Shown: positions 20,402 through 40,666 of the stretch, one piece after another
Layout of the letters: each line of letters begins with the position of its first letter
Position numbering within the stretch: the stretch's first letter is position 1
Source of the DNA: Candidatus Peregrinibacteria bacterium
Lineage (GTDB): Bacteria > Patescibacteriota > Gracilibacteria > Peribacterales > Peribacteraceae
NCBI GenBank assembly: GCA_016178535.1
Contig: JACOTD010000012.1
Coordinates: forward strand, 1-40,845
DNA length: 40,845 bases
Direction of reading: 5' to 3'
The notes under the pieces: generated by a model
Told to the model about the DNA's origin: nothing
Database searches by the model: none
Seen by the model: only the letters and a program-made list of their open reading frames with translations
Made by a program: the position numbers and the translations under genes

Positions 20402-20421
20402 AGGCTCATCATGGTAGCAGA

Positions 20422-20692
20422 ACGCGTGTTGGTGTTTGTTGTTTCTGTGACCTCACCCCCAACCCCTCTCCTGTTCTTGGGCTGTCCTTTCCTTCAGAAT
20501 TTTTGCATGTTTCTCGTGCAGGAACGGCAGGAGAGGGGGGTGTTTTGTTTATGTTTTGTCGTGTGGCAGCAAAAAAACAAACAAAACATTCCCCTCTCCT
20601 TGCTCAGAGCCTTCAGGAACATTCTCCTACATCGAAGAAAGGAAAATGGAAGGAGGAGAGGGGTTAGGGGTAAGGTCAAAACACCAACACCA
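20422..20692. repeat. Large imperfect palindromic intergenic element
   Basis: gacctcacccccaacccctctcct ... aggagaggggttaggggtaaggtc, inner ggagaggggggtgttttgttt ... aaacaaaacattcccctctcc. Confidence 0.8.
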
Positions 20693-20743
20693 TACAAAAC
20701 AGACCCCTGTCTTCGCCGAGATCTCCTCTTTATACTCTGTCTG

Positions 20744-23700
20744 ATGTTCGACCCCGTCGATCCACGGCAGAATTTCCCCTCGCTCGAGCGTGGCATTCTG
20801 AAGGAGTGGCGTGAGGAAAACACGTTCAAGCGATCGATTCATCAGAGGAGCCGCCAGGAGGGAGACCCGCTCGACGGGAAAAAAGGGGCGAGGGAAGACT
20901 GCTTCAGCTTCTACGACGGGCCGCCGTTTGCGACCGGGCTCCCCCACTACGGCCACCTCCTCGCGGGGACGATCAAGGACGTCATCCCCCGGTACCAGAC
21001 CATGCGCGGCAAACGCGTGGACCGGCGCTTCGGGTGGGACTGCCACGGGCTCCCCATCGAGAACATCATCGAGAAGGAGCACGGCATCAAGAGCAAGAAG
21101 GAGATCGAGGCCATGGGCGTGAAAGCGTTCAATGACTTGTGCCGCAGCGCCGTCCAGCGGCACACGAAGGAATGGAGAGTCGTCGTGGAACGCATGGGAA
21201 GGTGGGTCGACATGGATCACGACTACCGGACCATGGACCCCGAATACATGGAGAGCATCTGGTGGGTGTTCGCCTCGCTCGCGGAGAAGGAGCTGATCTA
21301 CGAGGGCCGCAAGCCGATGCATATCTGTCCGCGATGCCAGACATCGCTCTCCAATTTCGAAGTGACGCAGGGATACAGAGAGATCACGGACTATTCCGTC
21401 ACGGCGAAGTTTGAACTCATCGATGAGCCGGGAACATTCGTCCTCGCGTGGACGACGACTCCGTGGACGCTACCTGGGAATTTGTTTCTTGCTTTGAATC
21501 CTAATATCCAATACGTGAAATTTAAATACAAAAATGAATTCTGCATTGTTGCAGAAGCTATATGGAATAACCGTGAAAATCCAAAAAATGTATTGCACTC
21601 ACTCATGTACGCCAAAGCGCATGAACCAGGTATGCCAATTTTTGATACCGAAAAAATCGTTGGTAATCCATTTTCAGGGAAAGAACTTCTCGAAAAAAAG
21701 TATGGTCCTCTCTTCCCCTACTTCGCCGAAGAATACCAGAGAAGCGCTTTCCGGATCGTGCCAGGGGAATTCGTCACGATTGACGAGGGAACGGGCGTTG
21801 TGCACATCGCACCGGGATTCGGCGAGGACGACTGCAACATCGGGAAGCGAGAGCGGGTTCCCCTCCTCCAGCACGTTCACATGGACGGAACGTTCACGAG
21901 CGACGTGAGAGAGTTCTCCGGCATGCACGTGAAGCCGAAGGAAGATCCCAGCAAGACCGATCACAAAATCGCCGCATGGCTCGATGCGCACGGAAAGCTG
22001 TTCGCTGCGGAAAACTACTCTCACACGTACCCCCATTGCTGGCGATGCGATACTCCCCTCCTCAACTATGCGACCTCCTCCTGGTTCGTTTCGGTGGAGA
22101 AAATCAAGGAGAACATGCTCCAGGCGAACGCGGAGACGGAGTGGGTGCCCTCGCACATCCGCGATGGAAGGTTCGGGAAGTGGCTCGAGAATGCGCGCGA
22201 CTGGGCGATCTCCCGCTCGCGGTACTGGGGCACGCCGCTGCCGATCTGGCGATGCAGCGAGACGGGAGAGACGGAGGTGATCGGGAGCAGGGACGATCTG
22301 ATGAAGCGCAAACCGATCCGGTTCACGAAAGTAACGGTGCTGCGCCACGGTGAGAGCGGGGGGAACGTGGCGCCGCTCTACCAGGGAAAACCACCCGGAA
22401 CGGATCTGACGGCGAAGGGGAAGAACCAAGTGCGCGCGACGGCGGATCGCCTTTCCGACGAGACGATCGCGCGGATCTACTGCTCCCCGCTCGCGCGGAC
22501 GACGCAGACGGCGGCGATCATCGCGGAGGAGACGGACGCGGAGGCAGTGACTGACGAGCGCCTCCGCGAGGTGGAATTCGGCGAGTACGAGGGCACATCG
22601 ATCGATTTTTCCGACCTCACGCTCGTGAGAGCCAGGAGAGCCCACAAGCTCGAGACGGGGAAGATGGAGAGCATCTACCACTTCCCGGGCATGGAGACCT
22701 GGAAGCACGTGCACGCGCGCATGAGCGATTTCTTGACCGACGTCCTGCCCAGGCACCGCGGCGAGCACATCGTGATCGTCACGCACGCCGATCCCCTCCA
22801 GAACATCCGCACCTTCTTCACGGGCGAAGACCCGGTGAAGATCTCGCACCAGCCTTACCCGGGCTTCGCCGAGCCGTTCACCTTCTACTGGGATCACGAC
22901 ACGGGGAAGGAACTCGATCTCCACAGGGAGACCGTCGATACGATTCGGTGGCCAGGATCTCCGAACGAGAAGAGCGTTGAGGTGACCATCGTGCGGCACG
23001 GGGAGACGGACTGGAACAAGGAGCGCAAAGTGCAAGGCGGCGATGTCGACGAGCCGCTGAATGGCGAAGGGGGAAGCCAGGCGCATGCGCTCGCGAAGAA
23101 GCTCGCGAAGAAAACATTCGACGTGATCCTCTCTTCCGATCTGAAACGGACCGCCGGGACAGCCGCCATCCTCTCAAAGGAGCTCGGCGTTCCGCTCGCG
23201 GGTGAATGGAGAGAGCTCCGCGAACGGTTCACGGGTGAATGGAGCGGGACGTCCATCGATGACGTGATGAAGAAGCACCCGCGGATACACGAGAAACAGA
23301 GTCCGGTTTCCCAGCACGCAACACCGCCGGGCGGCGAGAGCCTCTCAGAATTTCTCCAGCGCATGGAGCGCGCCTACGACCGTCTCCTCGAAGAATTTTC
23401 CGGGAAGAAGATCCTCATCGTCACGCACAAGGGGGTCATTCAGGGGCTCGCAGCGCTCGCGGAGAATCTGACGCACAAGCAGGCGATTGATCATGCGAAG
23501 GAGAATGCCGAACTGCAGACGCTCACCCTCCATCCCCTCCTCCGGCGCATCCCCGAGGTGCTCGATTGCTGGTTCGAGAGCGGCTCGATGCCGTATGCGC
23601 AGGGGCACTTTCCCTTCGCACTTCGCACTTCGTACTTCGCAATTGATCAGGAGCAAAAGGGCGAATTGCGAATTGCGAGTGGCGAATTGCCCCCCGGCTT

Positions 23701-25186
23701 TCCCGCCGACTTCATCGCCGAGGGGATCGACCAAACGCGCGGGTGGTTCTATACGTTGACGGTGCTCAGCGCGGCGCTCTTCAACCTTCCGGCGTTTCGC
23801 CACTGCATCGTGAACGGGACGGTGCTCGCGGAGGACGGCAGGAAGATGAGCAAGCGGCTGAAGAATTACCCCGAGCCGCTCGAGGTCGTGGAGAAGCACG
23901 GGGCCGATGCCGTGCGCTTCGCGCTCATGAGTTCGCCTGCCGTGCGTGGCGAAGACCTGCGCTTCTCGGAGAAACTCGTGCTCGAGACGGTCAGGAGCGT
24001 CCTGCTGCCCCTCTGGAACACGTATTCATTTTTCGTGACGTACGCGAACGCGGCCACGTGGGAAGCGAGTGAAACTCGAAGACATTCGACGCATCCGCTC
24101 GATATTTGGATCCGCGCCGAGGTGCAGGATCTCGTGAATAGGATGACGGAGCAACTCGACGGCTACGATCTCTCCGCAACCTGTGCGGAGCTGCACGACA
24201 CGATCGACGCGCTCACCAATTGGTACATCCGTCTCTCGCGCCGGCGATTCGCCGGGAAGAGCGGCATTCATACGGAGACGGCATTCGATGACCATGGAGA
24301 GGATCGCCATGCGGCTCTCCACACGCTCTTCGATGTTCTCCTGACCCTCTGCCAGCTCCTGTCACCCTTCTGCCCGTTCATCACCGAGGCGATCTACTTG
24401 AACCTCGTTCCCGAGGAGCACGGATCCATCCACCTGACCGACTGGCCGGCCCCTCGGGCACTGACGAAGGAGGAAGAGATTCTCCTCTCGCGCACGCGGC
24501 TCCTGCGGATGATCGTGACGCTCGGGCTCTCGGTGCGCGCCGAGCGGAAGGTGAAGCTGCGTCAGCCGCTCAGCAAGGCGACGGCGGCGATTCCGCAATC
24601 TCTTCGGGAAGGCGGCGATCTCACTCTCGATGAACTGCGGCTCCTGCAGGAAGAATTGAACGTGAAGGCCATCGAAGTGGTGGACGATCCGGGGTCTCTC
24701 GCGCAGGCGATCGCACAGGTGGACGCGCGGAAGGTCGGGCCGCGATTGGGGGGTCGCGTGCAAGAGATCATCATCGCCGGGAAGAGCGGCGACTTCACCG
24801 TGAAGGAGAACGGCGAGGTGTTGATTCTCGAAGAAGTTCTCTCCCCCGAAGAAGTCACGATCGTCTACCGCGGACGCGAAGGGGAGAATATCGCGGCGGA
24901 CCGGGGGATCGTCGTCAGCATGGAGACGGCCGTGACGCCGGCATTGAAGAAGGAAGGGATGCTCCGAGACCTTCTCCGCGCCATCCAGAAGCTGCGGAAG
25001 GAGGAAGGCTTCGCGGTCACCGATCGCGTGACGCTTTCAATCGAGGGAGCGGATGATCTGATTCAGCACAACAAAGAAGTCATTGAACGCGAGACGAACG
25101 TCGTCGTCGACGGGAACAAGGACGGAGAGCACCATGTGATCCAACTCGACGATGACCATTCCGTGACGATCACCATAAAGAAGTGA
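20744..25186 (+). CDS. ileS: Isoleucyl-tRNA synthetase (type-2-like) with two embedded histidine phosphatase domains
   Basis: FYDGPPFATGLPHYGHLLAGTIKD, WTTTPWTLPGN, DCWFESGSMPYAQ, FIAEGIDQTRGWFYTL, DGRKMSKRLKNYPEP; ~1480 aa. RHG domains at ~22328-22970 and ~22972-23530. Confidence 0.95.
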   Translation: MFDPVDPRQNFPSLERGILKEWREENTFKRSIHQRSRQEGDPLDGKKGAREDCFSFYDGPPFATGLPHYGHLLAGTIKDVIPRYQTMRGKRVDRRFGWDCHGLPIENIIEKEHGIKSKKEIEAMGVKAFNDLCRSAVQRHTKEWRVVVERMGRWVDMDHDYRTMDPEYMESIWWVFASLAEKELIYEGRKPMHICPRCQTSLSNFEVTQGYREITDYSVTAKFELIDEPGTFVLAWTTTPWTLPGNLFLALNPNIQYVKFKYKNEFCIVAEAIWNNRENPKNVLHSLMYAKAHEPGMPIFDTEKIVGNPFSGKELLEKKYGPLFPYFAEEYQRSAFRIVPGEFVTIDEGTGVVHIAPGFGEDDCNIGKRERVPLLQHVHMDGTFTSDVREFSGMHVKPKEDPSKTDHKIAAWLDAHGKLFAAENYSHTYPHCWRCDTPLLNYATSSWFVSVEKIKENMLQANAETEWVPSHIRDGRFGKWLENARDWAISRSRYWGTPLPIWRCSETGETEVIGSRDDLMKRKPIRFTKVTVLRHGESGGNVAPLYQGKPPGTDLTAKGKNQVRATADRLSDETIARIYCSPLARTTQTAAIIAEETDAEAVTDERLREVEFGEYEGTSIDFSDLTLVRARRAHKLETGKMESIYHFPGMETWKHVHARMSDFLTDVLPRHRGEHIVIVTHADPLQNIRTFFTGEDPVKISHQPYPGFAEPFTFYWDHDTGKELDLHRETVDTIRWPGSPNEKSVEVTIVRHGETDWNKERKVQGGDVDEPLNGEGGSQAHALAKKLAKKTFDVILSSDLKRTAGTAAILSKELGVPLAGEWRELRERFTGEWSGTSIDDVMKKHPRIHEKQSPVSQHATPPGGESLSEFLQRMERAYDRLLEEFSGKKILIVTHKGVIQGLAALAENLTHKQAIDHAKENAELQTLTLHPLLRRIPEVLDCWFESGSMPYAQGHFPFALRTSYFAIDQEQKGELRIASGELPPGFPADFIAEGIDQTRGWFYTLTVLSAALFNLPAFRHCIVNGTVLAEDGRKMSKRLKNYPEPLEVVEKHGADAVRFALMSSPAVRGEDLRFSEKLVLETVRSVLLPLWNTYSFFVTYANAATWEASETRRHSTHPLDIWIRAEVQDLVNRMTEQLDGYDLSATCAELHDTIDALTNWYIRLSRRRFAGKSGIHTETAFDDHGEDRHAALHTLFDVLLTLCQLLSPFCPFITEAIYLNLVPEEHGSIHLTDWPAPRALTKEEEILLSRTRLLRMIVTLGLSVRAERKVKLRQPLSKATAAIPQSLREGGDLTLDELRLLQEELNVKAIEVVDDPGSLAQAIAQVDARKVGPRLGGRVQEIIIAGKSGDFTVKENGEVLILEEVLSPEEVTIVYRGREGENIAADRGIVVSMETAVTPALKKEGMLRDLLRAIQKLRKEEGFAVTDRVTLSIEGADDLIQHNKEVIERETNVVVDGNKDGEHHVIQLDDDHSVTITIKK
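23613..23693. repeat. Heptamer-type inverted repeat inside ileS
   Basis: cccttcgcacttcgcacttcgtacttcgcaatt ... gggcgaattgcgaattgcgagtggcgaattgcc. Confidence 0.8.
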
Positions 25187-28598: not shown

Positions 28599-28788
28599 AG
28601 AAAAAGGGGGGGAATGTCTGCGCGACTATAGCATCTCTCATCAGCATCTGCATCTGCAGAACAATCTCTCCCCGCAAACATTCCGCAATGCCAAGGATCA
28701 TGCTATGCTCATCGTCTTCGCTCTCTGAAACCATGGGCGAGAAGTTCTCGGTCTCTCATGCTTTTCTGTTTCTCTGAGTTTTTTTGGG

Positions 28789-29202
28789 GGATGACAGGTT
28801 TCGACAGCGTGATACGAGTCCGGTCGTGCTTCTGTTCGGGATGGCAACGGTTCCCGTCACCCACCGCTGCGCACCATATCTGCCAAACTGACAGATCGCG
28901 TTTCCGATTTCGTGAGCAAGGTCACAGGCTTCGCAAGAAGCTTCGTGCCTTCGTTCGCACCGGCATTCGCCTAAGTCCGCACGTGCTGCGGACACGTCTC
29001 ACCCCCGATTCTCGCTACGGGGATGAGGCGCCACCAGCGAGACAGGCAGAGCGTCTGATGTCGCGCTCCGCCTGACTTCCGACATCATCCTCCGCACCTT
29101 TCCTTGTTCCTTCCTCAGGGGTGCGGAACGCGGAAGGAACACGACAGTACGAGCCATCGCACTCCACGTTGGACCCGGGTTCAATTCCCGGCATCTCCAC
29201 CA
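28789..29202 (+). ncRNA. ssrA: Transfer-messenger RNA (tmRNA)
   Basis: 5' GGGGATGACAGGTTTCGACAG and 3' GGACCCGGGTTCAATTCCCGGCATCTCCACCA; acceptor GGGGATG pairs with CATCTCC; tag ORF ends ...PAFA-TAA (28972-28974) followed by a GTCCGCA/TGCGGAC stem. Confidence 0.95.
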
Positions 29203-29222
29203 AACTTCGCGCAGCGAAGTTT
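29202..29222 (+). repeat. Hairpin directly at the tmRNA CCA end
   Basis: AAACTTCGC-GCA-GCGAAGTTT. Confidence 0.6.
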
Positions 29223-29239
29223 GCCCCGTGTAGCCCAAG

Positions 29240-29488
29240 ATGCTTTACTTCTTCGCCGCGTGGTGCCCCATTTGCCACCAGACCAACCAGACGCTCACCT
29301 CGTGGTACACTCACGGCGATGGATTGCTGACGATCTACAGAATCAACTACGACACGGAGAAATCCCTCGAACAGAAGTACGGCGTCACGTACCAACACAC
29401 GTTCGTGAAAGTCGATGGCAAAGGCAATCTCATCACCATCCTCACCGGTCCGAGCGACGAGGAGTTACGGGATCTCCTCAAGGCGTAA
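29240..29488 (+). CDS. Thioredoxin-fold protein (short N-terminus)
   Basis: MLYFFAAWCPICHQTNQTL (WCPIC). Confidence 0.75.
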   Translation: MLYFFAAWCPICHQTNQTLTSWYTHGDGLLTIYRINYDTEKSLEQKYGVTYQHTFVKVDGKGNLITILTGPSDEELRDLLKA

Positions 29489-29526
29489 GGCGTCGTCTTC
29501 TGCGACCATCTCTCTCCATCTCTTCT

Positions 29527-30366
29527 ATGCTCTCCATCGCGTTCACGCTCTTCACGTCGGGACTCCTCACGATCCTCCTGCCGTGCATCCTGCCGTTGAT
29601 CCCGATTGTCCTCGGTGTGAGCATCGCCGATCGAAACCGCTTGAGACCACTGGTGACGATCCTCGGACTGCTCCTGAGCTTCGTCGGCTTCACGTTCCTC
29701 CTGCAGGTCGTGCTGAGCCAGTTCGTCGAGCTGGCGGACTACATCCGGATCGCAACCTTCTATGTCCTCCTGCTCTTCGGGCTTGGATTCCTCTTTCACA
29801 AACGTGCGATCCAGCTCACAGGAGCTGTTCTCGGCAGCATCTTCTTCTTGGATAAGGGATGGATCGCCATACTCATAGCGGCCGTTCTCGGCATCATTGC
29901 AATGAAAATCGGCGGCAGGGTGGCATCGGCCATCCAGCAACTCGGTAGCGACGTGCAGGGGGCGGCTCGCACTGGATTGGGAGCGAATTCCCTCCTCACG
30001 GCCTTCATCATCGGTCTCACCATGGGGCTCGTCTGGGTTCCCTGCGCTGGACCTGCTCTTGGCTTTGCCCTTTCCATCGTACGCAATCAGCCGGGGTTGA
30101 AGGCACTCCTCTTCCTGAGCGCCTATGCAATGGGAGCGGGCATCCCACTCCTCCTCATCGGCTATGGCGGACAAGCTGCGACGCACTCCGTGCGCGCTCT
30201 CAGCCGCTACAGCGGACGCGTGAAACAGGCATCCGGCGTGATCCTCATCCTCGCTGCCATCGGCTTCAACTACAATCTGTTTCAGGATCTGCAGATCTGG
30301 CTGATCACGCACACGACCTATGGAACCCTTGGCACGAACCTATGGAACCCTTGGCACGACGATTGA
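29527..30366 (+). CDS. CcdA/DsbD-like transmembrane protein (N-terminal half of a split DipZ-like protein)
   Basis: LTILLPCILPLIPIVLGVSIADR...GLVWVPCAGPALGFALSI. Confidence 0.88.
   Translation: MLSIAFTLFTSGLLTILLPCILPLIPIVLGVSIADRNRLRPLVTILGLLLSFVGFTFLLQVVLSQFVELADYIRIATFYVLLLFGLGFLFHKRAIQLTGAVLGSIFFLDKGWIAILIAAVLGIIAMKIGGRVASAIQQLGSDVQGAARTGLGANSLLTAFIIGLTMGLVWVPCAGPALGFALSIVRNQPGLKALLFLSAYAMGAGIPLLLIGYGGQAATHSVRALSRYSGRVKQASGVILILAAIGFNYNLFQDLQIWLITHTTYGTLGTNLWNPWHDD
30316..30359. repeat. Perfect 22-bp tandem duplication
   Basis: (acctatggaacccttggcacga) x2. Confidence 0.98.
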
Positions 30367-31462
30367 AGAGAAGATCTTCGGCAAGGACATTGGACGCACA
30401 GCATCTCCTCAGCGTTCATCGTCCTCTGCCTCATCCCCCACCAGCTCGGTTCGCACTTCCTCTCTCGTTTCATCCGAAGCAGGAAATGCGGCCTCAGGGG
30501 AAACGCCCGTTCCAGGAGCTCTGCAAACGAGAGTGAAATCCGATTTGCCCATTCTCGGTGCCGCACCGTCCGCATTCGTGGGCTTGGGTCCATGGCACAA
30601 CAGTCCGCCGCTCTCGCTCCAAGACTTGAAGGGCAAGGTCGTCCTGATCGACTTCTGGACCTACAGCTGCATCAACTGCATCCGCACACTGCCCTATCTG
30701 GAGGCGCTCTGGCAGAAGCACAAGGATCAACCCTTCGTGCTCATCGGCGTGCATACGCCGGAATTCACGTTCGAGAAGAGCGAGAAGAATGTGGCAGCGG
30801 CCATCAAGGAGCATGGCCTCACGTATCCCGTCGCGCAGGACAATGACTACGGGACGTGGAATGCCTTCAACAATCAGTACTGGCCCGCCCACTACCTGAT
30901 TGATGCCGAGGGAAACATTCGCTATACCCATTTCGGCGAGGGGGCGTACGACGAGACGGATCAGGCGGTGACCAGTCTGCTCGCGGAGATCGGCTCCGCC
31001 TCGGTTTCGAAGTCCATGCCGCCAGAAGCCGCCCGTCGACAGCGAGACGTCACCCCGGAGACGTATCTCCATTCCCGCAGCTGGGACAGCTTCGGCAACG
31101 CCCAGGGTCAGCCAGACGCCGCCGTCCACACCTACACTGCACCGACGCGCATGAACCTTCACAAGTTCTACCTCGTTGGAACATGGCAGCTCGTAGCGGA
31201 CGAACGGCAAGTGCTGCAGAGCGACAGCGGCGAGATTCGCATCAGAGCGTTGGCTGGTGAAGTGAATCTCGTGCTCGGCCCGGAAACGTCCACGCAACCG
31301 GTGAAGGCGGATATCGAAGTGGACGGAACATCATACAAAACGATCGCCATCCAGAATCATGATCTCTATACCCTCTTCAAAGGTTCCTACGGACAACACG
31401 ATGTCGTCTTGAAACTGCATGGCAAAGGCGTTGCCGCATACGCATTCACATTCGGCTCCTGA
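30320..31462 (+). CDS. TlpA-like thioredoxin with DipZ-type C-terminal domain (C-terminal half of split gene)
   Basis: LIDFWTYSCINCIRTLPYLEALW, HTPEFTFEK, C-terminal FYLVGTWQLVADERQ. Confidence 0.85.
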   Translation: MEPLARTYGTLGTTIEEKIFGKDIGRTASPQRSSSSASSPTSSVRTSSLVSSEAGNAASGETPVPGALQTRVKSDLPILGAAPSAFVGLGPWHNSPPLSLQDLKGKVVLIDFWTYSCINCIRTLPYLEALWQKHKDQPFVLIGVHTPEFTFEKSEKNVAAAIKEHGLTYPVAQDNDYGTWNAFNNQYWPAHYLIDAEGNIRYTHFGEGAYDETDQAVTSLLAEIGSASVSKSMPPEAARRQRDVTPETYLHSRSWDSFGNAQGQPDAAVHTYTAPTRMNLHKFYLVGTWQLVADERQVLQSDSGEIRIRALAGEVNLVLGPETSTQPVKADIEVDGTSYKTIAIQNHDLYTLFKGSYGQHDVVLKLHGKGVAAYAFTFGS

Positions 31463-31466
31463 AATC

Positions 31467-32204
31467 ATGCAGAAATTGTTTCTGATCGTGGCTCTCCTTT
31501 TCGTCATTGTTCCGCTGACGCTCGTGAAGGCGGCCAAGACCAGGTGTACCGCGGAACGTCTCCGCGCGACGTACCAGCAAAACATCCAACGGGGGGCAGA
31601 GGTCACTCATTTGCAACGGAAGACATGGTGGAGGAACTGCCCTTTATCCATCCGAAAATCTGTGTATGCGGGACTGTTCGCTCCCGCTCAAATTTCTTCT
31701 TCGTCTGTTTCCGTTTCCTCCTCGAGGCACACTCTATCGGTACAGTCTGATCTCCCCATACTCGGCAAGGCGCCTGAGCTCCAGGGACTCGGACAGTGGT
31801 TCAATAGTGATCCGCTGACGATTGCCTCACTGAGAGGAAAAGTGGTTCTTGTGCACTTTTGGACGTTCGAGTGCATCAACTGTATCCATACCCTTCCCGC
31901 GATACAGGGCTACTGGGACAAGTATAGAGAGAAGCCGTTCGTGGTCCTGGGAGTGCATACGCCGGAATTTACCTTCGAGAAGAGTGCCGATCACTTGCGA
32001 GATGCCATCAAGAAAGATGGCCTGACCTATCCTGTCGTCCAAGATAACGACTTTGCGACATGGAATGCATTTGGGAATCAGTACTGGCCCGCGGCGTACA
32101 TCATCGATACGCAGGGTACTATCCGCTACGAGCACTTCGGCGAGGGCGAATACGAGACGATGGACAAGGCGATCCATGATCTGCTCGGAGAGGCGGGGGC
32201 ATGA
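31467..32204 (+). CDS. Secreted TlpA-like thioredoxin, paralog of the upstream gene
   Basis: Signal peptide; VLVHFWTFECINCIHTLPAIQGYWDKYREKPFVVLGVHTPEFTFEKS. Confidence 0.88.
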   Translation: MQKLFLIVALLFVIVPLTLVKAAKTRCTAERLRATYQQNIQRGAEVTHLQRKTWWRNCPLSIRKSVYAGLFAPAQISSSSVSVSSSRHTLSVQSDLPILGKAPELQGLGQWFNSDPLTIASLRGKVVLVHFWTFECINCIHTLPAIQGYWDKYREKPFVVLGVHTPEFTFEKSADHLRDAIKKDGLTYPVVQDNDFATWNAFGNQYWPAAYIIDTQGTIRYEHFGEGEYETMDKAIHDLLGEAGA

Positions 32205-32318
32205 CCCTGCGATGAGCCGAGCAAATGCCGTGGCGCAGGCTACAGAAAGCACGAACGGCTCATGAGGATCAGTTCTCCGGATTCTCGTATAGCTCGCCCC
32301 GCATCGGGACTGCAGTGG

Positions 32319-32460
32319 CAAGCGATCATGCAGGAACGGAAGATTCCACACAGCAGCCACAATGTCACTGCTTCCGAGATAGACCTCGCAGGCAAGCAGA
32401 CCCTGACGGACGGCGGCACATCCGTTCCCGTGCTCGTCGTTGATAGGGGGACAGAGAATC
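32319..32460 (+). pseudogene. Glutaredoxin remnant lacking CxxC
   Basis: IMQERKIPHSSHNVTASEIDLAGKQTLTDGGTSVPVLVVDRGTE parallels intact copy at 33456..33707; 44 bp identical stretch. Confidence 0.75.
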
Positions 32461-32477
32461 ACGAAAAATCTATTGCA

Positions 32478-32511
32478 TTGAATATTTATCATATGCTATA
32501 TTTTCAATGTG
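32478..32511. promoter_or_regulatory. ArsR promoter/operator palindrome
   Basis: TTGAATATTTATCATATGCTATATTTTCAATG overlapping TGCTATATT -10 box, 6 nt before GTG start. Confidence 0.55.
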
Positions 32512-32823
32512 CTATCTCCTGCTCATCAGCAGTTCCTCAAGACCCTTGGCAATCCCAAGCGGATGGAGCTTATGCTGTTCCTCCTGAAGAAGCCTCTGAC
32601 TGTCACGGAGCTCGTGGAGAAGAGCGCCATGGAGCAGTCCACCGTCTCTCATCACCTCAAGCGTTTGAGGATCTGTCAGTTCGTGAAAAGCACGACCAAC
32701 GGAAAGGAGCGCATCTACTCCGTGAATGAGGAGACGGCGGGACCTCTCTTCCGACTGATGAATACGCACGTAGACAAATACTGTCAGCGTGTTTGCTGCT
32801 CCAACAAGAAACGAACCTCGTAG
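32509..32823 (+). CDS. ArsR/SmtB-family transcriptional regulator
   Basis: LKTLGNPKRMELMLFLLKKPLTVTELVEKSAMEQSTVSHHLKRLRICQFV; C-terminal CC. Confidence 0.92.
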   Translation: MLSPAHQQFLKTLGNPKRMELMLFLLKKPLTVTELVEKSAMEQSTVSHHLKRLRICQFVKSTTNGKERIYSVNEETAGPLFRLMNTHVDKYCQRVCCSNKKRTS

Positions 32824-32855
32824 CTCTTTCTCTGTACTTTCTTCCCCCCATTTCT

Positions 32856-33131
32856 ATGGTTCGATCCAGCTCACCACAGGCGGCCACGTTTCGCGTCTTC
32901 TCAGCGGACTGCCCTCTGTGCAGGGCAACCCTTACGACCTTGTGCTCTGCCATCCAGAAGCGCGGCTGCGGCTGCCAAGTGAAAGAGCATCGTTGCAGCG
33001 GCGATGAGTGCTGCGAACCTGCGAAGGAGTACAACGTGAAGTCTGTCCCCACGATCATCCGGGACGGCAAGATCGTTCACGTCGGCAAGCTCACAGAACA
33101 GGAAGCAGAAGAACTCCTCCCCGTTTCATGA
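32856..33131 (+). CDS. Cys-rich thioredoxin-like small protein
   Basis: FSADCPLCRATLTTLCSAIQKRGCGCQVKEHRCSGDECCEPAKEYNVKSVPTIIRDGKIV. Confidence 0.65.
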   Translation: MVRSSSPQAATFRVFSADCPLCRATLTTLCSAIQKRGCGCQVKEHRCSGDECCEPAKEYNVKSVPTIIRDGKIVHVGKLTEQEAEELLPVS

Positions 33132-33346
33132 GCACCGAGGCAGCGGCCGGGCGGCACTTCCATGCAGCAGTGCTCGGCACCATTGCCGTTGCCATCTGCT
33201 GCTTCACGCCGATCCTCGTGCTTGCGCTCGGCGCAGCAGGCCTGGGGATCATAGCGCCATACCTGGACTACGTTCTCCTGCCTGCTCTCGCTCTCCTCGT
33301 TCTCGTGACAGTCCTCTCCTACCGCACATGGAAGGCTCATCGATGA
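33128..33346 (+). CDS. merF: MerF-like mercury transport membrane protein
   Basis: LGTIAVAICCFTPILVLALGAAGLGIIAPYLDYVLLPALA. Confidence 0.82.
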   Translation: MSTEAAAGRHFHAAVLGTIAVAICCFTPILVLALGAAGLGIIAPYLDYVLLPALALLVLVTVLSYRTWKAHR

Positions 33347-33381
33347 TCGACGATCTCCATCACCGGCGTGCGAGTGACTCA

Positions 33382-33409
33382 CGATGCAGTAGCCTAGGCT
33401 ACTGCATCG
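33382..33409. repeat. Perfect 28-bp palindrome without spacer
   Basis: cgatgcagtagcctaggctactgcatcg equals its own reverse complement. Confidence 0.97.
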
Positions 33410-33455
33410 GCAACAGAGCCGACGGAGAATGATCCTGCAACTTCCCTCCGAATCT

Positions 33456-33707
33456 ATGCACACCTTCGATCTCTACACCACTCCCCAGTGCGGCTACTGC
33501 AAGCAGCTGAAGACGATCATGCAAGAACGGAAGATATCATACAGCAATCATGACGTGACCATCTCTGAGTCGGATGTAGCGGACATGCAGACCCTGACGG
33601 ACGGCGGCACATCCGTTCCCGTGCTCGTCGTCGATAAGGGGACGGAGCATCAGCAGGTGGCGCAGGGACTCAACGATGCCCAGTGGCTGCTCGATCACTC
33701 CAAGTGA
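33456..33707 (+). CDS. Glutaredoxin family protein
   Basis: FDLYTTPQCGYCKQLKTIMQERK...TSVPVLVVDKG. Confidence 0.88.
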   Translation: MHTFDLYTTPQCGYCKQLKTIMQERKISYSNHDVTISESDVADMQTLTDGGTSVPVLVVDKGTEHQQVAQGLNDAQWLLDHSK

Positions 33708-33710
33708 ACC

Positions 33711-33920
33711 ATGACTGCACACGAGCCACCGTCGGCGGTTGCACACCTGACGTGTCCCAAATGCGGCCATGTGCAGGAAGCCACGATCCCAACCTCTTCC
33801 TGCGTTCCTTTCTACGTCTGTAGGAACTGCAAGGCTCTCATCAAGGCGAAGGATCATGATTGTTGCGTGTTTTGTAGTTATGGGGATCGTGACTGTCCCT
33901 TGAGACAAGAAAGGCGGTGA
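33711..33920 (+). CDS. GDCCVxC-like small Cys-rich protein
   Basis: LTCPKCGHVQEATIPTSSCVPFYVCRNCKALIKAKDHDCCVFCSYGDRDCPL. Confidence 0.75.
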   Translation: MTAHEPPSAVAHLTCPKCGHVQEATIPTSSCVPFYVCRNCKALIKAKDHDCCVFCSYGDRDCPLRQERR

Positions 33921-33927
33921 AATTTTC

Positions 33928-33951
33928 TCCGGCATCTCCACCGCACTTCGC
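33928..33951 (+). repeat. Direct repeat of the ssrA 3' end (att-like)
   Basis: ccggcatctccaccgcacttcgc vs ccggcatctccaccaaacttcgc at 29188-29210 (21/23). Confidence 0.75.
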
Positions 33952-34060
33952 TCGCTGCGGCGAGCCTCGCGCTTGCCTTTCCGTAACTCGCAAGCGGAGG
34001 AAGGTGGCGAGCCGCAATTCGTTCTTGTTTTTCAAGAAACATGCTCTACTCTCAAGAGCC

Positions 34061-36319
34061 ATGTTCGGCATGAACATGCAACAGGCGATATCTCTCTCCG
34101 GCATCGGTCTGCAGCTCGCCGTGATCGTTGCCGCGGGGGGCGGTCTTTTTCCGGCGACCGTGAGCGCAGGAACGTCCGAGAGCCACGTCGATTGGCAGCA
34201 GACGGCCGGGCCCATCGGAGGAGTCATCAACAGGATGAAGACGGTGAACGGTGAGGTATGGGCATCTCTCTACTCCGGCGGCATCTACAAGTTCATCGGC
34301 AGCCAGTGGCAGCAGATCGGCATCTGGCACGGACTGCCCGAGAATCGCGCCTTTGATTTTGTCGTCGATCCCGTGGATTCTCACATAGTGTACGCCGCAC
34401 AACTCATCGCGTGTCTCGCGAAGAGCACGGATGGCGGCAAGAGCTGGCAGGGCCTCTGCGACGGGTTCCTGCCTCAGTTACAGGTCGATAACTACAGCTC
34501 GAAATCGATTGCCATCGATCCGAAGGATCATCGGAAGATCTACGTGGCCGGGAAGGATTACCATGAGGAAGCCTCCATCGTGATGAGCCCCGATCAAGGG
34601 AAAACGTGGATGATGGTCCATGCGTTCGGCAAGCCCATGCCGATCAATCACCTCGTGTTCTTCCACGATCGCATGTACCTGGCAACGGAAAGCGAGGGCG
34701 TGTACCGCTCGGATGACCGGGGAAAGAGTTGGACCGCGCTCTCCGCCGGCCTCGACCAGATGCGCACGGGGCAATTCGTCGTCGATCCCGACGGAAAGAA
34801 CCTCTCCCTCTTCACCGGACTCCTGCAGTACAACGTGCGGGAGGGGGGGAAGGCCTACGTGCTCGACGAGGGGGCATCGCGCTGGAAGTCTCTCGGAGGA
34901 CCGGACCTCGTGACCAGCCTGACCTGGAACAACGGCGCACTCTGGGCCGGGAACGTGGCGGGGGAAATCTGGAGAAACGATGCGAAGGGTTGGAAGCTTC
35001 TCAACCGCGGCGCCGAGCTCCCCGCAACGGTGACGGAGCTCGCATTCACTGACAAGAACACCCTCTTCGCGGGAGCGCGCGGCTTCGGCGTGTATCGTTC
35101 AACCAACGGTGGGAAGCGGTTCGCGGACGTCAGCGCGGGTTTGGTCGCGAGTGCCACACGGGAAGTCTCCGTGGATCCTGCAAACGGGAAACGGTTCTAC
35201 GTGATGAGCTGGGATCGTCCTGGAATCTATTATTCCGAGAACGGTGGCGCGTCCTTCACCGTCCTGGGGAATGACACCTTCGTGATGAGCATGGCAACCG
35301 TTCCCGGGGATTTTTCCAGGCTCTACGCCTCGGGTTTTGGTCCCACCGGCGGCCTGATGGTCTTCGCAGTGGCGGTGAAGGGCGCCAAGGCAACGTGGAC
35401 CCCGCACCCGCAACCGGGCCCCGATGGCGCGGTCGTCAAGATTCTTGCCGTCGATCCGGGCAATCCCGCCCATGTGCTCCTGAGCCTCGGCAAAGACCGG
35501 GCGGAAACTCCGGCAGGATACGGCGTGTACGCGTCGCGTGACAGCGGACGCACGTGGAAGAAGCTTGCGCTGCCGGATCTCGCATCCTACGCGATTCTGT
35601 TCAATCCCAAGGATCCGAAGATCGTCTACGTCGGCTTGCTCGGCGGCGGCGTCTACAAGAGCATGGATGGCGCAGCGACGTTTGGCAAACTCGGCGATGA
35701 ACGCCTGCAGTACACCTACCGGATGGCGATGTCTCCGAGCGATCCGACTATCCTGCTCGCGGGATCCCACCTCTTCTTCGCAGGGCTCTCGACGGAAGAT
35801 CAGATCTCGGGAAAGTATGGCGGCCTCTTCAAGAGCACCGACGGCGGCGCCACGTGGCGGGACATCACCGCCGGGTATCGCAATTACGGTCCCGATGCGC
35901 AGGGCAACTTCATCGGCTCGCTCTACAATCTCGGACACATGCCGAACTTTGAGCAGCTGCTCTTTGACCCGAAGGATCACCGCCACATGCTCGTCGCCCA
36001 CCATGGCGAAAACGTGTTCATGACCAACGATGACGGGAAGACGTGGACCAAACAGAAGTCGGGAATGATTCCGGAAGATATGCACAACTACGCCTACTGT
36101 CTGGGGGCCGATGCAACATTTACAACCGTCTATGCGTGCACCTGCGGAAGGGGGCTCTTCAGCGGTGTCGTCGGCCCCGGAGGGAGCGTGCGCTGGCGCC
36201 CCGTCGGACTTGCGAGTGTCCTTCCCCCCGAGGATCGCGAGCGATCGCCAACAGCGCCCAAGAACGCCGCCCAAGCGCGCGAGCGCATCGTGGAGGGTTT
36301 GTACACGGACGAACACTGA
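34061..36319 (+). CDS. Secreted BNR/Asp-box beta-propeller (sialidase/VPS10-like) protein
   Basis: Signal peptide; repeated STDGGKSW, SPDQGKTW, SDDRGKSW, SRDSGRTW, STDGGATW, NDDGKTW. Confidence 0.85.
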   Translation: MFGMNMQQAISLSGIGLQLAVIVAAGGGLFPATVSAGTSESHVDWQQTAGPIGGVINRMKTVNGEVWASLYSGGIYKFIGSQWQQIGIWHGLPENRAFDFVVDPVDSHIVYAAQLIACLAKSTDGGKSWQGLCDGFLPQLQVDNYSSKSIAIDPKDHRKIYVAGKDYHEEASIVMSPDQGKTWMMVHAFGKPMPINHLVFFHDRMYLATESEGVYRSDDRGKSWTALSAGLDQMRTGQFVVDPDGKNLSLFTGLLQYNVREGGKAYVLDEGASRWKSLGGPDLVTSLTWNNGALWAGNVAGEIWRNDAKGWKLLNRGAELPATVTELAFTDKNTLFAGARGFGVYRSTNGGKRFADVSAGLVASATREVSVDPANGKRFYVMSWDRPGIYYSENGGASFTVLGNDTFVMSMATVPGDFSRLYASGFGPTGGLMVFAVAVKGAKATWTPHPQPGPDGAVVKILAVDPGNPAHVLLSLGKDRAETPAGYGVYASRDSGRTWKKLALPDLASYAILFNPKDPKIVYVGLLGGGVYKSMDGAATFGKLGDERLQYTYRMAMSPSDPTILLAGSHLFFAGLSTEDQISGKYGGLFKSTDGGATWRDITAGYRNYGPDAQGNFIGSLYNLGHMPNFEQLLFDPKDHRHMLVAHHGENVFMTNDDGKTWTKQKSGMIPEDMHNYAYCLGADATFTTVYACTCGRGLFSGVVGPGGSVRWRPVGLASVLPPEDRERSPTAPKNAAQARERIVEGLYTDEH

Positions 36320-36365
36320 ACGCACCCTCTCTTCGCGTTCTTCATCATCCCGATCGGCTCTACCC

Positions 36366-36438
36366 ATCCCATGATCAACAGCTCCAGACGGTTTAAACTC
36401 TCTCGCAGGATCTCCACCATTGTTTTCTGTAAGCCAAA
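36366..36438. repeat. Direct repeat copy 1 (pairs with 39572..39646)
   Basis: cggtttaaactctctcgcaggatctccaccattgttttctgtaagccaaaa. Confidence 0.8.
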
Positions 36439-37454
36439 AGACAAACCTCACCCCTCAATGACGCATGCGGGTGATACCGCTCCCCAGACTGATGAGTGGG
36501 GTCAACGTGAACGACGGCAAGCGAGAGGTAGTTTATGTGATGGTAGAGCTCATGTTGCACGTCGTTTGCAATCTCATGGCCTTCCGTGACGGAGAGAGAA
36601 GACTCAACGGCAATATTCATCTCCAGATGCAGCTTATGCCCGATCCATCGTGCCCGTACGTCGGAGACATCCTGCACGCCGGTGACATGGCTCACGGCAT
36701 GGGTGATTTCCTCCATGATCTCTGGCTCCACGCCATCGAGCGCCCGGAGGAAGACCGCCTTCACGGAATCCCAGACGATGAAGAAGATCGCAACGGTGAT
36801 GCCAAGGCCGATGAGAGGATCAGTGAGCGGGAAGCCGAGCCAGACACCAAGTGCCCCGAAGAGCACCGCGAGACTCGTCCAGCCGTCCGTCCGTGCGTGG
36901 CAGCCATCCGCGATGAGCGCGGCACTCCTGATCTCCTTTCCCACCCGCAAACGGAACAGTGCCACTCCCTCGTTCCCGAGGAAGCCGACGATGGAGGCGA
37001 TGACGACCGCCCAGAGATGCTTGACGTGCTGGGGATGGATGAAGCGGTCGATGGCCTCGTAGCCCGCCACGATGGCACTGAAGAGAATAATGAGCACGAC
37101 AGCCATTCCCGCCAAGTCTTCCACTCTGCCATAGCCGTAGGAAAAACGCTTCGTGGGTCTGAGGCGAGCGAAGAAGAAGGCAATCCCCAGAGGAATGGCG
37201 GTCGCCGTATCTCCGAAGTTGTGGATGGTATCGGCAAGGAGAGCGACGCTCCCTGAGAGAATGACAACGACGACTTGGAGACAGGCAGTGATGAAGAGGC
37301 CGATGAACGACCACTTCACCGCCCAGAGACCCTTCTTCGAGGAAGCAATCGAGGGATCGACGACGCCGTGCGTATGCGCGTGTTCTCCGCAGTGTGTCCG
37401 TGTATGGCCGTGCTCTTCATGAGAGCGGTCACCATGACGATGTTCGTGTGACAT
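36393..37454 (-). CDS. Cation diffusion facilitator with His-rich N-terminus
   Basis: MSHEHRHGDRSHEEHGHTRTHCGEHAHTHG; SVALLADTIHNFGDTATAIPLGIAF; FSYGYGRVEDLAG. Confidence 0.92.
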   Translation of the reverse strand: MSHEHRHGDRSHEEHGHTRTHCGEHAHTHGVVDPSIASSKKGLWAVKWSFIGLFITACLQVVVVILSGSVALLADTIHNFGDTATAIPLGIAFFFARLRPTKRFSYGYGRVEDLAGMAVVLIILFSAIVAGYEAIDRFIHPQHVKHLWAVVIASIVGFLGNEGVALFRLRVGKEIRSAALIADGCHARTDGWTSLAVLFGALGVWLGFPLTDPLIGLGITVAIFFIVWDSVKAVFLRALDGVEPEIMEEITHAVSHVTGVQDVSDVRARWIGHKLHLEMNIAVESSLSVTEGHEIANDVQHELYHHINYLSLAVVHVDPTHQSGERYHPHASLRGEVCLLAYRKQWWRSCERV

Positions 37455-37502
37455 GCTGACAGAGTAACACAATGCCTTTGCTCTGGTAGAATTGAAAACA
37501 GC

Positions 37503-37970
37503 ATGAAATGGATCACTCGTGAGCGGCCCAAGATCGATCGGGTTGCCTGTCCATGGCTGATCACTCGTTTCATCGATACGGCGGCAAAATTCCTGTTCGT
37601 GCCACCTGACCAGGTGCTGCCAAAAGCGAAGGCGGCCGGAGCGACTCCCTTCGACGTTCCGGGCGTCGAACTGACGCATGATGGACCTCTGTGTAGCTTC
37701 GATGCGGTACTCAAGAAGTACAAACTGGCCGATCCCGCCCTGCATGAACTGGCCGTGATTGTTCGTGGAGCCGACACCGATCGACTCGATCTGGCACCCC
37801 AATGCGCTGGCTTACTGGCAATCTCGTTGGGGCTGTCCCGTGCGCATAGCAATGACCGCGAAATGCTCACGCATGGATTCGTCGTGTACGACGCTCTGTA
37901 TGCGTGGCTGAAATTTGTGCGCAACGAAAAGCATGACTGGAACCCGCAACGAAATCCGCAACGGGCGTGA
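37503..37970 (+). CDS. ChrB C-terminal domain-like chromate resistance protein
   Basis: KWITRERPKIDRVACPWLITRFIDTAAKFLFVP...GAGE-like PFDVPGVELTHDGPLCSFDAVLKKY. Confidence 0.82.
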   Translation: MKWITRERPKIDRVACPWLITRFIDTAAKFLFVPPDQVLPKAKAAGATPFDVPGVELTHDGPLCSFDAVLKKYKLADPALHELAVIVRGADTDRLDLAPQCAGLLAISLGLSRAHSNDREMLTHGFVVYDALYAWLKFVRNEKHDWNPQRNPQRA

Positions 37971-38034
37971 TGACCGCGGTGATGTGCAGACGCACTCACT
38001 TCTCTGCCGAAAGACACGTGCTACTATACGGCTG

Positions 38035-38814
38035 ATGCATCAAACATGGACACGACATTGCATGATCATTCTCTACGTACTCGCTGCGCTCCTTCTGACG
38101 TGGTCGGCCTTCACGTTCTTTTATCAGTACGTTGCGGCGGTTGGTTCTCTTCATGGAGTAATCGCAGCTTTTGGAAACGATCGTATTTTAACGGCGCTCT
38201 GGCTGAGTTTTTCCTCCGCCATTGTTGTTGCCATACTGAGCATCATTCTCGGCATCCCGCTCGGTTACGTCTTCGCTCTCAAGGATTTTCCGGGAAAGGT
38301 CGTCATCGAGACGCTCGCAGTTGATGTGCCGCAGACCTTCCCGCCCATCGCCGAAGGCATGATCTTCCTCCTCATGTTGGGACCAACGTCGCCGCTTCAT
38401 TTCAATCTCTCCCTCACGTTCACGGCACTCGTCATCGCCAAGCTCTTCATCTGTGCCCCATTCGTCGTCTCCTTCGCGGCGAGAGGCTTCCGCGAGATTG
38501 CCAAAACCGGCATCAACGTGACGGCGCGCGCGCTCGGTGCAAACCGCTTCCAAGTCTTCTATTCGGTCTTCCTTCCTCTGGCGCTGCGAGACATCGGAGC
38601 CGGGGTATCGCTCTGCTGGTCTCGGGCGATGGGTGAGCTTGGAGGAAGCCTCCTCTTCGCAGGCGTGATCCCCGGAAAGACCGAGATCATCCCGACCTTC
38701 ATCGCAACACAGGCACACACGCTCACCGTGGAAGCGCTGGCTGCAACAATTCTCGTGACCACTGCGTCCACGCTCGCTCTCGTGTCCTTCAAGCTCTTCA
38801 CCGTCCGCACATGA
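38035..38814 (+). CDS. ABC transporter permease, molybdate/tungstate/sulfate type
   Basis: LWLSFSSAIVVAILSIILGIPLGYVFALKDFPGK; CWSRAMGELGGSLLFAGVIPGKTEIIPTFI. Confidence 0.85.
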   Translation: MHQTWTRHCMIILYVLAALLLTWSAFTFFYQYVAAVGSLHGVIAAFGNDRILTALWLSFSSAIVVAILSIILGIPLGYVFALKDFPGKVVIETLAVDVPQTFPPIAEGMIFLLMLGPTSPLHFNLSLTFTALVIAKLFICAPFVVSFAARGFREIAKTGINVTARALGANRFQVFYSVFLPLALRDIGAGVSLCWSRAMGELGGSLLFAGVIPGKTEIIPTFIATQAHTLTVEALAATILVTTASTLALVSFKLFTVRT

Positions 38815-39536
38815 AAAGGTTGACCGTAGAACACTTGGCATCTGGCTACGAGCAGCACCGAGTGCTGCACGATATTTCCTTTGTTGCACACCCGAATGAA
38901 ACAACGGTCATCATGGGGCCATCAGGGAGCGGCAAGACAACGCTGCTGCTCACCATTCTCGGTATCATCGGCCCGCAAACAGGAAGGGTATTGCTGGGGA
39001 ACAGGAATATGACGCATGAACCGATAGAAACGCGGCATATCGGCTATCTCCCCCAGGACTACGGCCTCTTCCCACACATGAGCGTACTGGACAATGTCTC
39101 CTACGGTCTCCGCGTGTGGGGTGTGCCGAAGCAGGAGCGGTACAAGATTGCAAAGGACATGCTTTCGCTCGTAGAAATGGATGAGTACGCCGACAGGCGC
39201 ATCGCACAGTTATCGGGCGGCCAGCGGCAACGCGTTGGCCTTGCGCGGGCGCTCGCCATCAAGCCTGACCTTCTGCTGCTGGATGAACCGCTCTCGAACA
39301 TTGACCAAGTGACAAAGTTGGACGTCGCCAAAGGACTGATCGATCTTTTCAAGAAGCTCGATATTCCCATTCTCCTCGTCACGCATAACTATGAAGATGC
39401 CCATTGGTTTGCAAAGCACCTCATTGTCCTCATCAATGGGCAGATTGCGCAAGAAGGCACGTTCCAAACAGTGAAGGAATCTCCGAGGACAGAGTTCATC
39501 AAGAGGCTGATTATGCCCTTTTCGGGGCATGTGTGA
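38811..39536 (+). CDS. ABC transporter ATP-binding protein (oxyanion-type)
   Basis: GPSGSGKTTLL, LSGGQRQRVGLARAL, LLLDEPLSNID; ATGA overlap with permease. Confidence 0.93.
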   Translation: MKRLTVEHLASGYEQHRVLHDISFVAHPNETTVIMGPSGSGKTTLLLTILGIIGPQTGRVLLGNRNMTHEPIETRHIGYLPQDYGLFPHMSVLDNVSYGLRVWGVPKQERYKIAKDMLSLVEMDEYADRRIAQLSGGQRQRVGLARALAIKPDLLLLDEPLSNIDQVTKLDVAKGLIDLFKKLDIPILLVTHNYEDAHWFAKHLIVLINGQIAQEGTFQTVKESPRTEFIKRLIMPFSGHV

Positions 39537-39540
39537 TGCA

Positions 39541-39627
39541 TCACCCGTAGAGTTGCCCAATCTGCTCCGCCCAGCCAAGAATCATCTTCTCCAACCGGTT
39601 CAAACTTTTGCGTACCATGTCCACCAT
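39541..39627 (-). CDS. 28-aa small ORF MVDMVRKSLNRLEKMILGWAEQIGQLYG
   Basis: Peptide similar to MVEILRESLNRLELLIMGWVEPIG encoded at 36420 (minus) in the paired repeat. Confidence 0.35.
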   Translation of the reverse strand: MVDMVRKSLNRLEKMILGWAEQIGQLYG

Positions 39628-39646
39628 TGGCTTCTGTAAGCCAAAA
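39572..39646. repeat. Direct repeat copy 2 (pairs with 36366..36438)
   Basis: cggttcaaacttttgcgtaccatgtccaccattggcttctgtaagccaaaa. Confidence 0.8.
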
Positions 39647-40666
39647 TTATTTTCCCACCCTTTCCACCCAGAAACGAACAGTCTCATTCATGTTTGTTGG
39701 AGTAATTTGAATATCGGGATATGTATTTTTGAATACTCTGAATATTTCATCCGCAAAGGCTTGTCCTATCGTACGCACTTTATCGAAATCGAGAATGATG
39801 GACTTAAATTTTTCTAAACCTGCCAATACTCTACGAGCCTGCGACCGTGATACGTGCACAGTTCCCAGAGTATAAAGCTTCATCTGAATTTTAGTCTTAT
39901 CGAATGCATGCTCTGTCGGATCGGTTTGGTATTCCTTGAAAACACCATTGAGATGTTTTTTTGAATCACAAGAAATTTGGAAGAATACCTTCGTGCCTTT
40001 TTTGGAAGGTTTCACTTCTTCGATGAAGATATCTTTCAAAATATTGTTGATAGTCAGTTTTTTCCCGAAGCTTTCAAGGCTGAATATATCCGCCACTTTT
40101 GACGTGAAGAAGATGCCTTCACCCGAATGGGCTTGGGGCTGCGTTGTGGTTTTTCCTTTCAAGAGATCTTGTATTGCTTCTAACTCAGATTGAAGTTTTC
40201 GTTTTTGCATGACGTTACGAAATACTCCGACTCCAAAATCATTGACCATGAAGACGAGAGTATCCGTGCGCTTTTCCACCTCCACATGAACATTTTTTGA
40301 GCTTGAATGTTCGATGGCGTTATTGAGCATTTCTGAAAAAGCATATTCAAAAATACTCCTCTGATTTTCAGAAAAAGATCGGCGGAATTGTGATCTGCTT
40401 TCAATGCCCTCGAGCACTGAGTGCTCTGCCAAATTTTGATTGTGAAATCGCTTGTCATATTTCCATTGCACTTGATCCGCGTACTTGGGCGGCACATAGG
40501 AAGCAGCTCGTGTAGAACCTAATTTTATAAGCAGGCCCTGTTTGATAAGATCCTTCAAGATCCTTTGGGCATACTGCCTGCTGATCTTCAATGCATCGGC
40601 AATTTCTTTGGATTGCAGGTTGCCTCTCTTTTGAGCCATGGAGAGAATTTGACCCTTGGTATCCAC
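39647..40666 (-). CDS. HTH - GHKL ATPase - STAS-like (DUF4325) fusion protein
   Basis: QSKEIADALKISRQYAQRILKDLIKQGLL; FSEMLNNAIEHSSSKNVHVEV, VNDFGVGVF, HSGEGIFFTSK; IILDFDKVRTIGQAFADEIFRVF. GTG start. Confidence 0.82.
   Translation of the reverse strand: MDTKGQILSMAQKRGNLQSKEIADALKISRQYAQRILKDLIKQGLLIKLGSTRAASYVPPKYADQVQWKYDKRFHNQNLAEHSVLEGIESRSQFRRSFSENQRSIFEYAFSEMLNNAIEHSSSKNVHVEVEKRTDTLVFMVNDFGVGVFRNVMQKRKLQSELEAIQDLLKGKTTTQPQAHSGEGIFFTSKVADIFSLESFGKKLTINNILKDIFIEEVKPSKKGTKVFFQISCDSKKHLNGVFKEYQTDPTEHAFDKTKIQMKLYTLGTVHVSRSQARRVLAGLEKFKSIILDFDKVRTIGQAFADEIFRVFKNTYPDIQITPTNMNETVRFWVERVGK

Follow-up and report, generated by a model that had tools for sequence, protein, structure and literature searches.

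Background

According to the Islander study of tDNA islands, no serine integrase with a tRNA-type gene as its target was known in 2014 (PMC4383910). An earlier survey likewise found serine recombinase elements in tRNA genes to be rare, the examples being the actinomycete integrative and conjugative elements (AICEs) in tRNA-Leu and phage phiRSM1 in tRNA-Ser (PMC3218068). Integrases that disrupt their own gene are, according to a review, exclusively archaeal and all of the tyrosine family (PMC8371274). Here we describe the region downstream of ssrA, the tmRNA gene, in a Candidatus Peregrinibacteria bacterium (assembly GCA_016178535.1, contig JACOTD010000012.1, positions 1 to 40,845 of the forward strand); this whole stretch of 40,845 nucleotides is referred to as the window. 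The uncultivated, small-genome members of this group are regarded as gene-poor and conservative. We assign a probability of roughly 0.75 to the reading that the DNA behind this ssrA consists of elements inserted at the ssrA end with a shared TCCACCA core, forming layers A, B and C, of which B and C are remnants of elements carrying a large serine recombinase (LSR).

The duplicated ssrA end and the stacked segments

The intact ssrA gene (28787..29202, plus strand; found by ARAGORN and matched by Rfam RF00023 with 84 bits) is the insertion target. Its terminal sequence CCGGCATCTCCACCAAACTTCGC at 29188-29210 is repeated at 33929-33951 with 2 mismatches, the chance expectation in the window being 0. 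Exact matches to the 14-nt core CCGGCATCTCCACC, the last 14 nt of ssrA, occur in the 1.25-Mb draft genome only at the ssrA end and at 33929-33942, and allowing one mismatch adds three other matches, none of which carries a tRNA or tmRNA. The second copy is followed by CACTTCGCTCGCTGCGGCGAG (33943..33964, plus strand), found once in the whole genome. The same 21 nt lie directly 3' of an intact ssrA in the relative G014, and variants of them occupy this position in five more genomes (G019, G021, G026, G030 and G244). Because a flank that is unique here and directly follows ssrA in relatives comes after copy 2, position 33929 is, by this comparison, the displaced old ssrA end, and 29203-33942 now separates ssrA from the sequence that used to follow it. 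In segment A, the ssrA 3' end at 29188..29202 thus forms the left attachment junction (attL) and the displaced end at 33929..33942 the right one (attR), both on the plus strand.

Two further ends lie beyond the second copy. A direct repeat of 91 nt (75% identity) occurs at 36349-36439 and 39556-39646. Each copy holds a TCCACCA core (36413-36419 and 39620-39626) followed by TTG(G/T)(C/T)TTCTGTAAGCCAAAA, which resembles the ssrA flank of G025 and G192. The right flank gene (39647..40666, minus strand), encoding a protein with winged helix-turn-helix (HTH), ATPase and STAS-like DUF4325 parts, is located about 0.1 kb from ssrA in G014, 0.95 kb in G004 and 10.4 kb here, while the left side is conserved, with IleRS and a small membrane gene upstream of ssrA here and in many relatives. 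Because of the two additional decayed ends and the closeness of the flank gene to ssrA in G014, the 10.4 kb behind ssrA are read as three stacked segments: A (29203-33942), B (33943-36419) and C (36420-39626), all without a recombinase. This interpretation of the sequence is well supported; A is the youngest, with earlier insertions pushed outward, and the segment ends are increasingly decayed with distance from ssrA. G014 provides the empty site for the whole stack, and no relative without segment A alone was found among the relatives compared.

An earlier reading made from the letters of this DNA alone (the sequence-only reading) had proposed that a duplicated ssrA end marks an insertion at the ssrA 3' end, and had named other copies of the repeat in the genome and empty sites in relatives as things to look for. 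The duplication is confirmed, as a 23-nt repeat with 2 mismatches; its 14-nt core has no third exact copy in the genome. The repeat is not random: its copy-2 flank is the ssrA flank of relatives. The insertion is supported by this displaced flank and by the sites of relatives, which are empty (G014) or differently filled. The same reading had described a single 4.7-kb island. The bracketing of the first segment by ssrA ends stands, but this segment is the youngest of three stacked ones that together reach 39627.

Recombinases behind ssrA

The sequence-only reading had further seen no integrase inside its island, implied that one of the tyrosine type had acted, and suggested a search of the genome for a tyrosine recombinase. 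The absence was borne out for the entire window, which has neither a tyrosine nor a serine recombinase. A tyrosine recombinase does exist in the genome, but this only member is a XerC/D-like gene on another contig. Across the family, genomes contain about one PF00589 protein each, of the Xer type, and never on the ssrA contig in the genomes searched. The implied integrase type did not hold: the integrase-bearing elements at ssrA in the family carry a large serine recombinase.

Such LSRs, composed of Resolvase, Recombinase and zinc ribbon domains (PF00239, PF07508, PF13408), were located directly behind ssrA in four genomes (G005, G011, G185 and G240), and in two more genomes LSRs belonging to this protein family lie behind a tRNA gene, tRNA-Ala in G296 and tRNA-Arg in G214. 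Three elements are complete, with the LSR on the left and the right-end sequence (RE, see below) on the right; they measure 6.73 kb (G005), 6.69 kb (G296) and 5.06 kb (G214). The LSR gene lies at the left end of the element, antisense to the target. The frame stays open through the core and on into the target gene, closing in the case of ssrA with VVEMPGIEPGSNV or similar, and in all six LSRs (6/6) the core is read NTG-GTG-GA, in the same phase as the peptide encoded by RE.

These observations bear on the alternative of a classical tyrosine-integrase island at ssrA that has lost its integrase gene. In its favour, the 14-nt ssrA end is repeated with the orientation that tDNA islands usually show, tyrosine integrases are the customary enzymes of such islands (PMC4383910), and segment A is devoid of the RE of LSR elements. 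We consider it unlikely, since those recombinases that do occur behind ssrA belong to the serine type, whereas PF00589 proteins are confined to about one per family genome, away from ssrA in those searched and XerC/D-like here.

LSRs of the family are not limited to ssrA. Other members end in antisense tRNA-like sequence, for example RTWWAGLDSNQRRRKASRFTVCPV; they comprise L209 and L210 (on C34 and C41 of the genome studied here), L213, L220, L221, L226 and L227. The sequences suggest that the same LSR architecture serves several tRNA targets. Relatives in IMG/VR with 36-38% identity also end in or beside tRNA-like sequence, none of them with a native tail. In one of these (L230, IMG/VR 3300005992_000003), a prophage contig, the recombinase is 36% identical and overlaps a called tRNA-Ala(ggc). 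The architecture may extend beyond the family. Known phages contain distant LSR relatives only, the best listed being below 30% identity.

The right-end sequence

We built a model of RE, the right end of B and C, which is about 70 nt long and has TCCACCA at its end. In both segments it adjoins the TCCACCA core: the RE of B occupies 36352..36420 (plus strand; core at 36413-36419), with the other strand reading MVEILRESLNRLELLIMGWVEPIG, and that of C 39555..39627 (plus strand; core at 39620-39626), with the other strand reading MVDMVRKSLNRLEKMILGWAEQIGQLYG. Searches with the model, whose E-values are rough, gave 29 matches at 53 ssrA loci, all of them downstream of ssrA on its strand and 0 upstream, compared to 0 in 436 kb of control loci. 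Genome-wide, RE is present in 40 of 74 family genomes (40/74), mostly within 15 kb (<=15 kb) behind ssrA and also elsewhere.

The opposite strand of RE encodes a conserved peptide, [MVL]V[DE]xxRKSxxxLxxxIxxW. Its frame is open in 35 of 37 sequences (35/37), compared to 4 and 12 for the other two frames. Differences between RE sequences number 5059, 3598 and 6572 at codon positions 1, 2 and 3, that is, fewest at the second and most at the third, although these figures are not fully independent because the training sequences were partly chosen by the peptide pattern. We had also considered RE as an independent small protein gene; this was dropped, as the LSR frame runs in phase into RE. A search of IMG/VR with the strict motif found no viral carrier of RE.

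A second alternative is an integron-like array, in which ssrA would take the place of attI in capturing single-gene cassettes, whose expression would come from transcripts reading through from ssrA. Many segments of relatives are indeed short and hold one gene, often starting near ssrA. However, there is no integron integrase, the only tyrosine recombinase scoring 118 bits against a TIGR02249 cut-off of 265; RE has no conserved fold, with no consensus structure obtained; TCCACCA departs from the attC core GTTRRRY; and LSR elements account better for RE. The results on integrase, fold and LSR led us to abandon an integron cassette array, which appears very improbable.

ssrA as an insertion site in the family

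Exact GGCATCTCCACC within 10 kb of ssrA was found, among 52 loci, six times downstream on the ssrA strand, with 0 on the other strand and 0 upstream. Relatives offer independent pairs of filled and empty sites. G192 has a 2.57-kb insert directly after ssrA, and in G269 the same flank adjoins ssrA. G218 forms such a pair with G028 and with G025; in G218, 8.8 kb separate ssrA from a mini-element that adjoins ssrA in G028. G024 carries a 4.7 kb insert with a 40-nt copy of the ssrA end. In relatives, segments of only 0.4-2 kb with one gene are numerous, for example with Fic, RelB/YafQ, GIY-YIG or a Cro/C1 HTH. The 3' end of ssrA is quite probably an insertion site throughout the family.

As the least probable alternative, the repeats would be chance matches or a dispersed terminator-type repeat in an ordinary chromosomal region, to which the hairpin-like flanks recurring behind many cores and the match of copies 3 and 4 to the ssrA end in only ~11/13 positions would be congenial, but genome-wide uniqueness, the strand and position bias and the natural empty sites contradict it, and for copy 2 chance is refuted by the unique core and flank together with the empty sites.

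The G218 insert (L134, 3793-12684) encodes a type IIG restriction-methyltransferase and a DrmD-like helicase, and it has a PD-(D/E)XK protein in common with the insert of G024 (L053; 89%). The mini-element, with about 120-150 bp between two TCCACCA cores and no gene, is present in three genera (L057 in G028, L134 in G218 and L190 in G016) and is possibly non-autonomous. Downstream of the ssrA insertion of G192, L123 has at 8008-9366 a gene for a SIR2-domain protein resembling ThsA-type defence proteins.

Proposed mechanism

The sequences themselves show the repeats, the identity of the flank, the empty sites and the stacking, the distribution of RE, and the position and frame of the LSRs. From them we infer a recombination at the ssrA end, with TCCACCA as the shared core, in which ssrA would stay intact on the left while older insertions are moved outward. 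Because the LSR frame crosses the core and the RE peptide shares its phase, the most likely place for attP is within the recombinase gene, at its 3' end, and insertion would swap the C-terminal tail of the protein. The circular form would encode the LSR with its native tail, a helical RE peptide of 25-37 residues. Upon integration this tail would be exchanged for an ssrA-antisense tail, the native one staying behind as a fossil, RE, at the right end. Segments B and C would be remnants of such LSR elements, and segment A would have entered the same site with a longer, 14-nt right end derived from ssrA and without RE. More generally, we regard it as rather likely that a bacterial LSR family targeting ssrA and tRNA ends carries attP in its own gene, with a native C-terminal helix swapped for an antisense-target tail; this could act as a switch between the integrating and integrated states, and the fossil tails would make past insertions countable.

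Several points weigh against this scheme. Segment A has no recombinase, and neither a serine recombinase nor its remnant was found in the window. There is no RE match in segment A before 33929. RE also occurs at places without any ssrA in the stretch read, some of them tRNA-linked. The LSRs of this genome that were examined have C-termini reading into tRNAs or elsewhere, not into ssrA. No intact LSR with a native tail in one frame was found, IMG/VR included, and the circular junction is thus inferred. The dependence of the codon-position figures on the choice of training sequences belongs here as well, as does the state of the assembly, a draft of 92 contigs; contigs of draft genomes often break at these repeats.

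Gene content of the segments

Segment A begins with a recurrent left end (29203..29238, plus strand) made up of the hairpin AAACTTCGCGCAGCGAAGTTT and then GCCCCGTGTAGCCCAA. This left end, AACTTCGCGCAGCGAAGTTTGCCCCG(T/C)GTAGCCCAA, is also found after an attachment core in G021. Because site and left end are shared, segment A uses the same insertion arena. On the right it has a longer copy of the ssrA terminus (14 nt here), and longer copies are likewise present in G024, G028, G137, G192 and G218.

All genes of segment A are on the plus strand. The first encodes a thioredoxin (29240..29488; PF00085) and begins where the proteins of relatives extend at least 50 residues further upstream; it is followed by a CcdA-like membrane half (29527..30366; PF02683) and a half with TlpA and C-terminal domains (30320..31462; PF17991 (Thioredoxin_10), PF00578) of a DipZ-like gene. 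The latter is a single frame of at least 600 residues in relatives and is split here by a 22-bp tandem duplication (30316..30359, plus strand), a real mutation unless it is an assembly error. Next are a second TlpA/AhpC-TSA-like protein (31467..32204) and a degenerate partial glutaredoxin copy upstream of arsR (32312..32461; 78% to 33503-33652). The remaining genes encode an ArsR/SmtB metalloregulator (32509..32823; NF033788), a Cys-rich thioredoxin-like protein of the Thioredoxin_3 type (32856..33131), the mercury transport protein MerF (33128..33346; NF033565, above cut-off), a glutaredoxin (33429..33707; PF00462) and a GDCCVxC protein (33711..33920; NF041374, above cut-off).

The order ArsR, Thioredoxin_3, MerF recurs in two other Peregrinibacteria at 64-78% identity, with a gene for a MerA-like reductase close by, and among named organisms the Cys-rich thioredoxin has its nearest relatives in Candidatus Peregrinibacteria assemblies. 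A MerA-like gene was not found among the open reading frames (ORFs) of the segment A interval, to which the search was limited, the rest of the genome not having been searched. With its truncated thioredoxin, split DipZ-like gene and mercury genes without MerA, segment A looks to be decaying. The cargo is probably a former thiol-redox module joined to part of a mercury operon, and a former role in mercury transport and thiol defence is plausible.

Every gene that the sequence-only reading had named is present: thioredoxin, CcdA/DsbD_TM, TlpA with Thioredoxin_10, second TlpA, ArsR/SmtB, Thioredoxin_3, MerF, glutaredoxin and GDCCVxC. Its mercury island holds insofar as MerF and ArsR are there, but the mer cluster is incomplete, having no MerA among the interval ORFs. 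The very short N-terminus that it ascribed to the first gene is real and results from 5' truncation at the boundary, relatives having a long N-terminal part. Putative read-through from ssrA into this gene (29240) is possible. A remnant or trans-mobilised state, as it had proposed, is supported, as is the lack of an integrase on board.

The cargo of segment B is a sortilin/BNR-repeat protein (34064..36319, plus strand). Segment C holds a cation diffusion facilitator (36393..37802, minus strand; PF01545, PF16916), whose C-terminus extends into the RE of B, a ChrB C-terminal domain protein (37503..37970, plus strand; PF09828) and two genes for an ABC permease and ATPase (37990..38814 and 38811..39536, plus strand). 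The segment with the ChrB C-terminal domain protein has no ChrA. On the left side of ssrA, the long frame of IleRS (17600-25186, plus strand) includes two histidine-phosphatase-like motifs (RHGESGGN and RHGETDWNKE) inside the synthetase.

Comparison with known systems

In this family ssrA emerges as a recurrent gate for foreign genes, among them genes for metal, redox, restriction and toxin-antitoxin functions, whose layers are readable by age. If attP does lie inside the recombinase gene, the elements would give bacteria a serine-family equivalent of the self-altering integrases of archaea. Their directionality switch would be open to testing, and they would add a new group of site-specific integrases that act on tRNA and tmRNA ends.

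The genes of segment A have partial counterparts. Like the mer operons (MerR/ArsR, MerF/T, MerA), the segment has ArsR, Thioredoxin_3 and MerF, in the order of the two other Peregrinibacteria loci; in contrast, it has glutaredoxin and GDCCVxC genes instead of a MerA among the interval ORFs. The CcdA, TlpA and Thioredoxin_10 C-terminal domains are those of a DipZ-type CcdA-TlpA fusion, whereas here the frame is split by the 22-bp duplication and the preceding thioredoxin is truncated.

Among mobile elements, tDNA islands of the Islander type, including tandem arrays (PMC4383910), share with this locus the intact tmRNA gene, the displaced 3' fragment in the same orientation and the tandem stacking. 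They differ in that the window has no integrase, the enzyme of the family is a serine recombinase, and the segments are small and decayed. The actinobacterial AICEs and phiRSM1 resemble the present elements in relying on a serine recombinase for insertion at the 3' ends of tRNA-type genes; the present elements are distinguished by ssrA being among the targets and by a Peregrinibacteria-type host. A further difference, in the case of phiRSM1 only a possible one, is that attP appears to lie inside the recombinase gene. The archaeal suicidal integrases of the SSV type have, as we propose for the present LSRs, the recombination site within the integrase gene, which integration alters. However, those are tyrosine integrases split in two, whereas here the enzyme is a serine recombinase (PF00239/PF07508) of which only a short C-terminal tail would be exchanged. 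With the present elements, such self-altering integrases would gain a variant that is bacterial and of the serine family.

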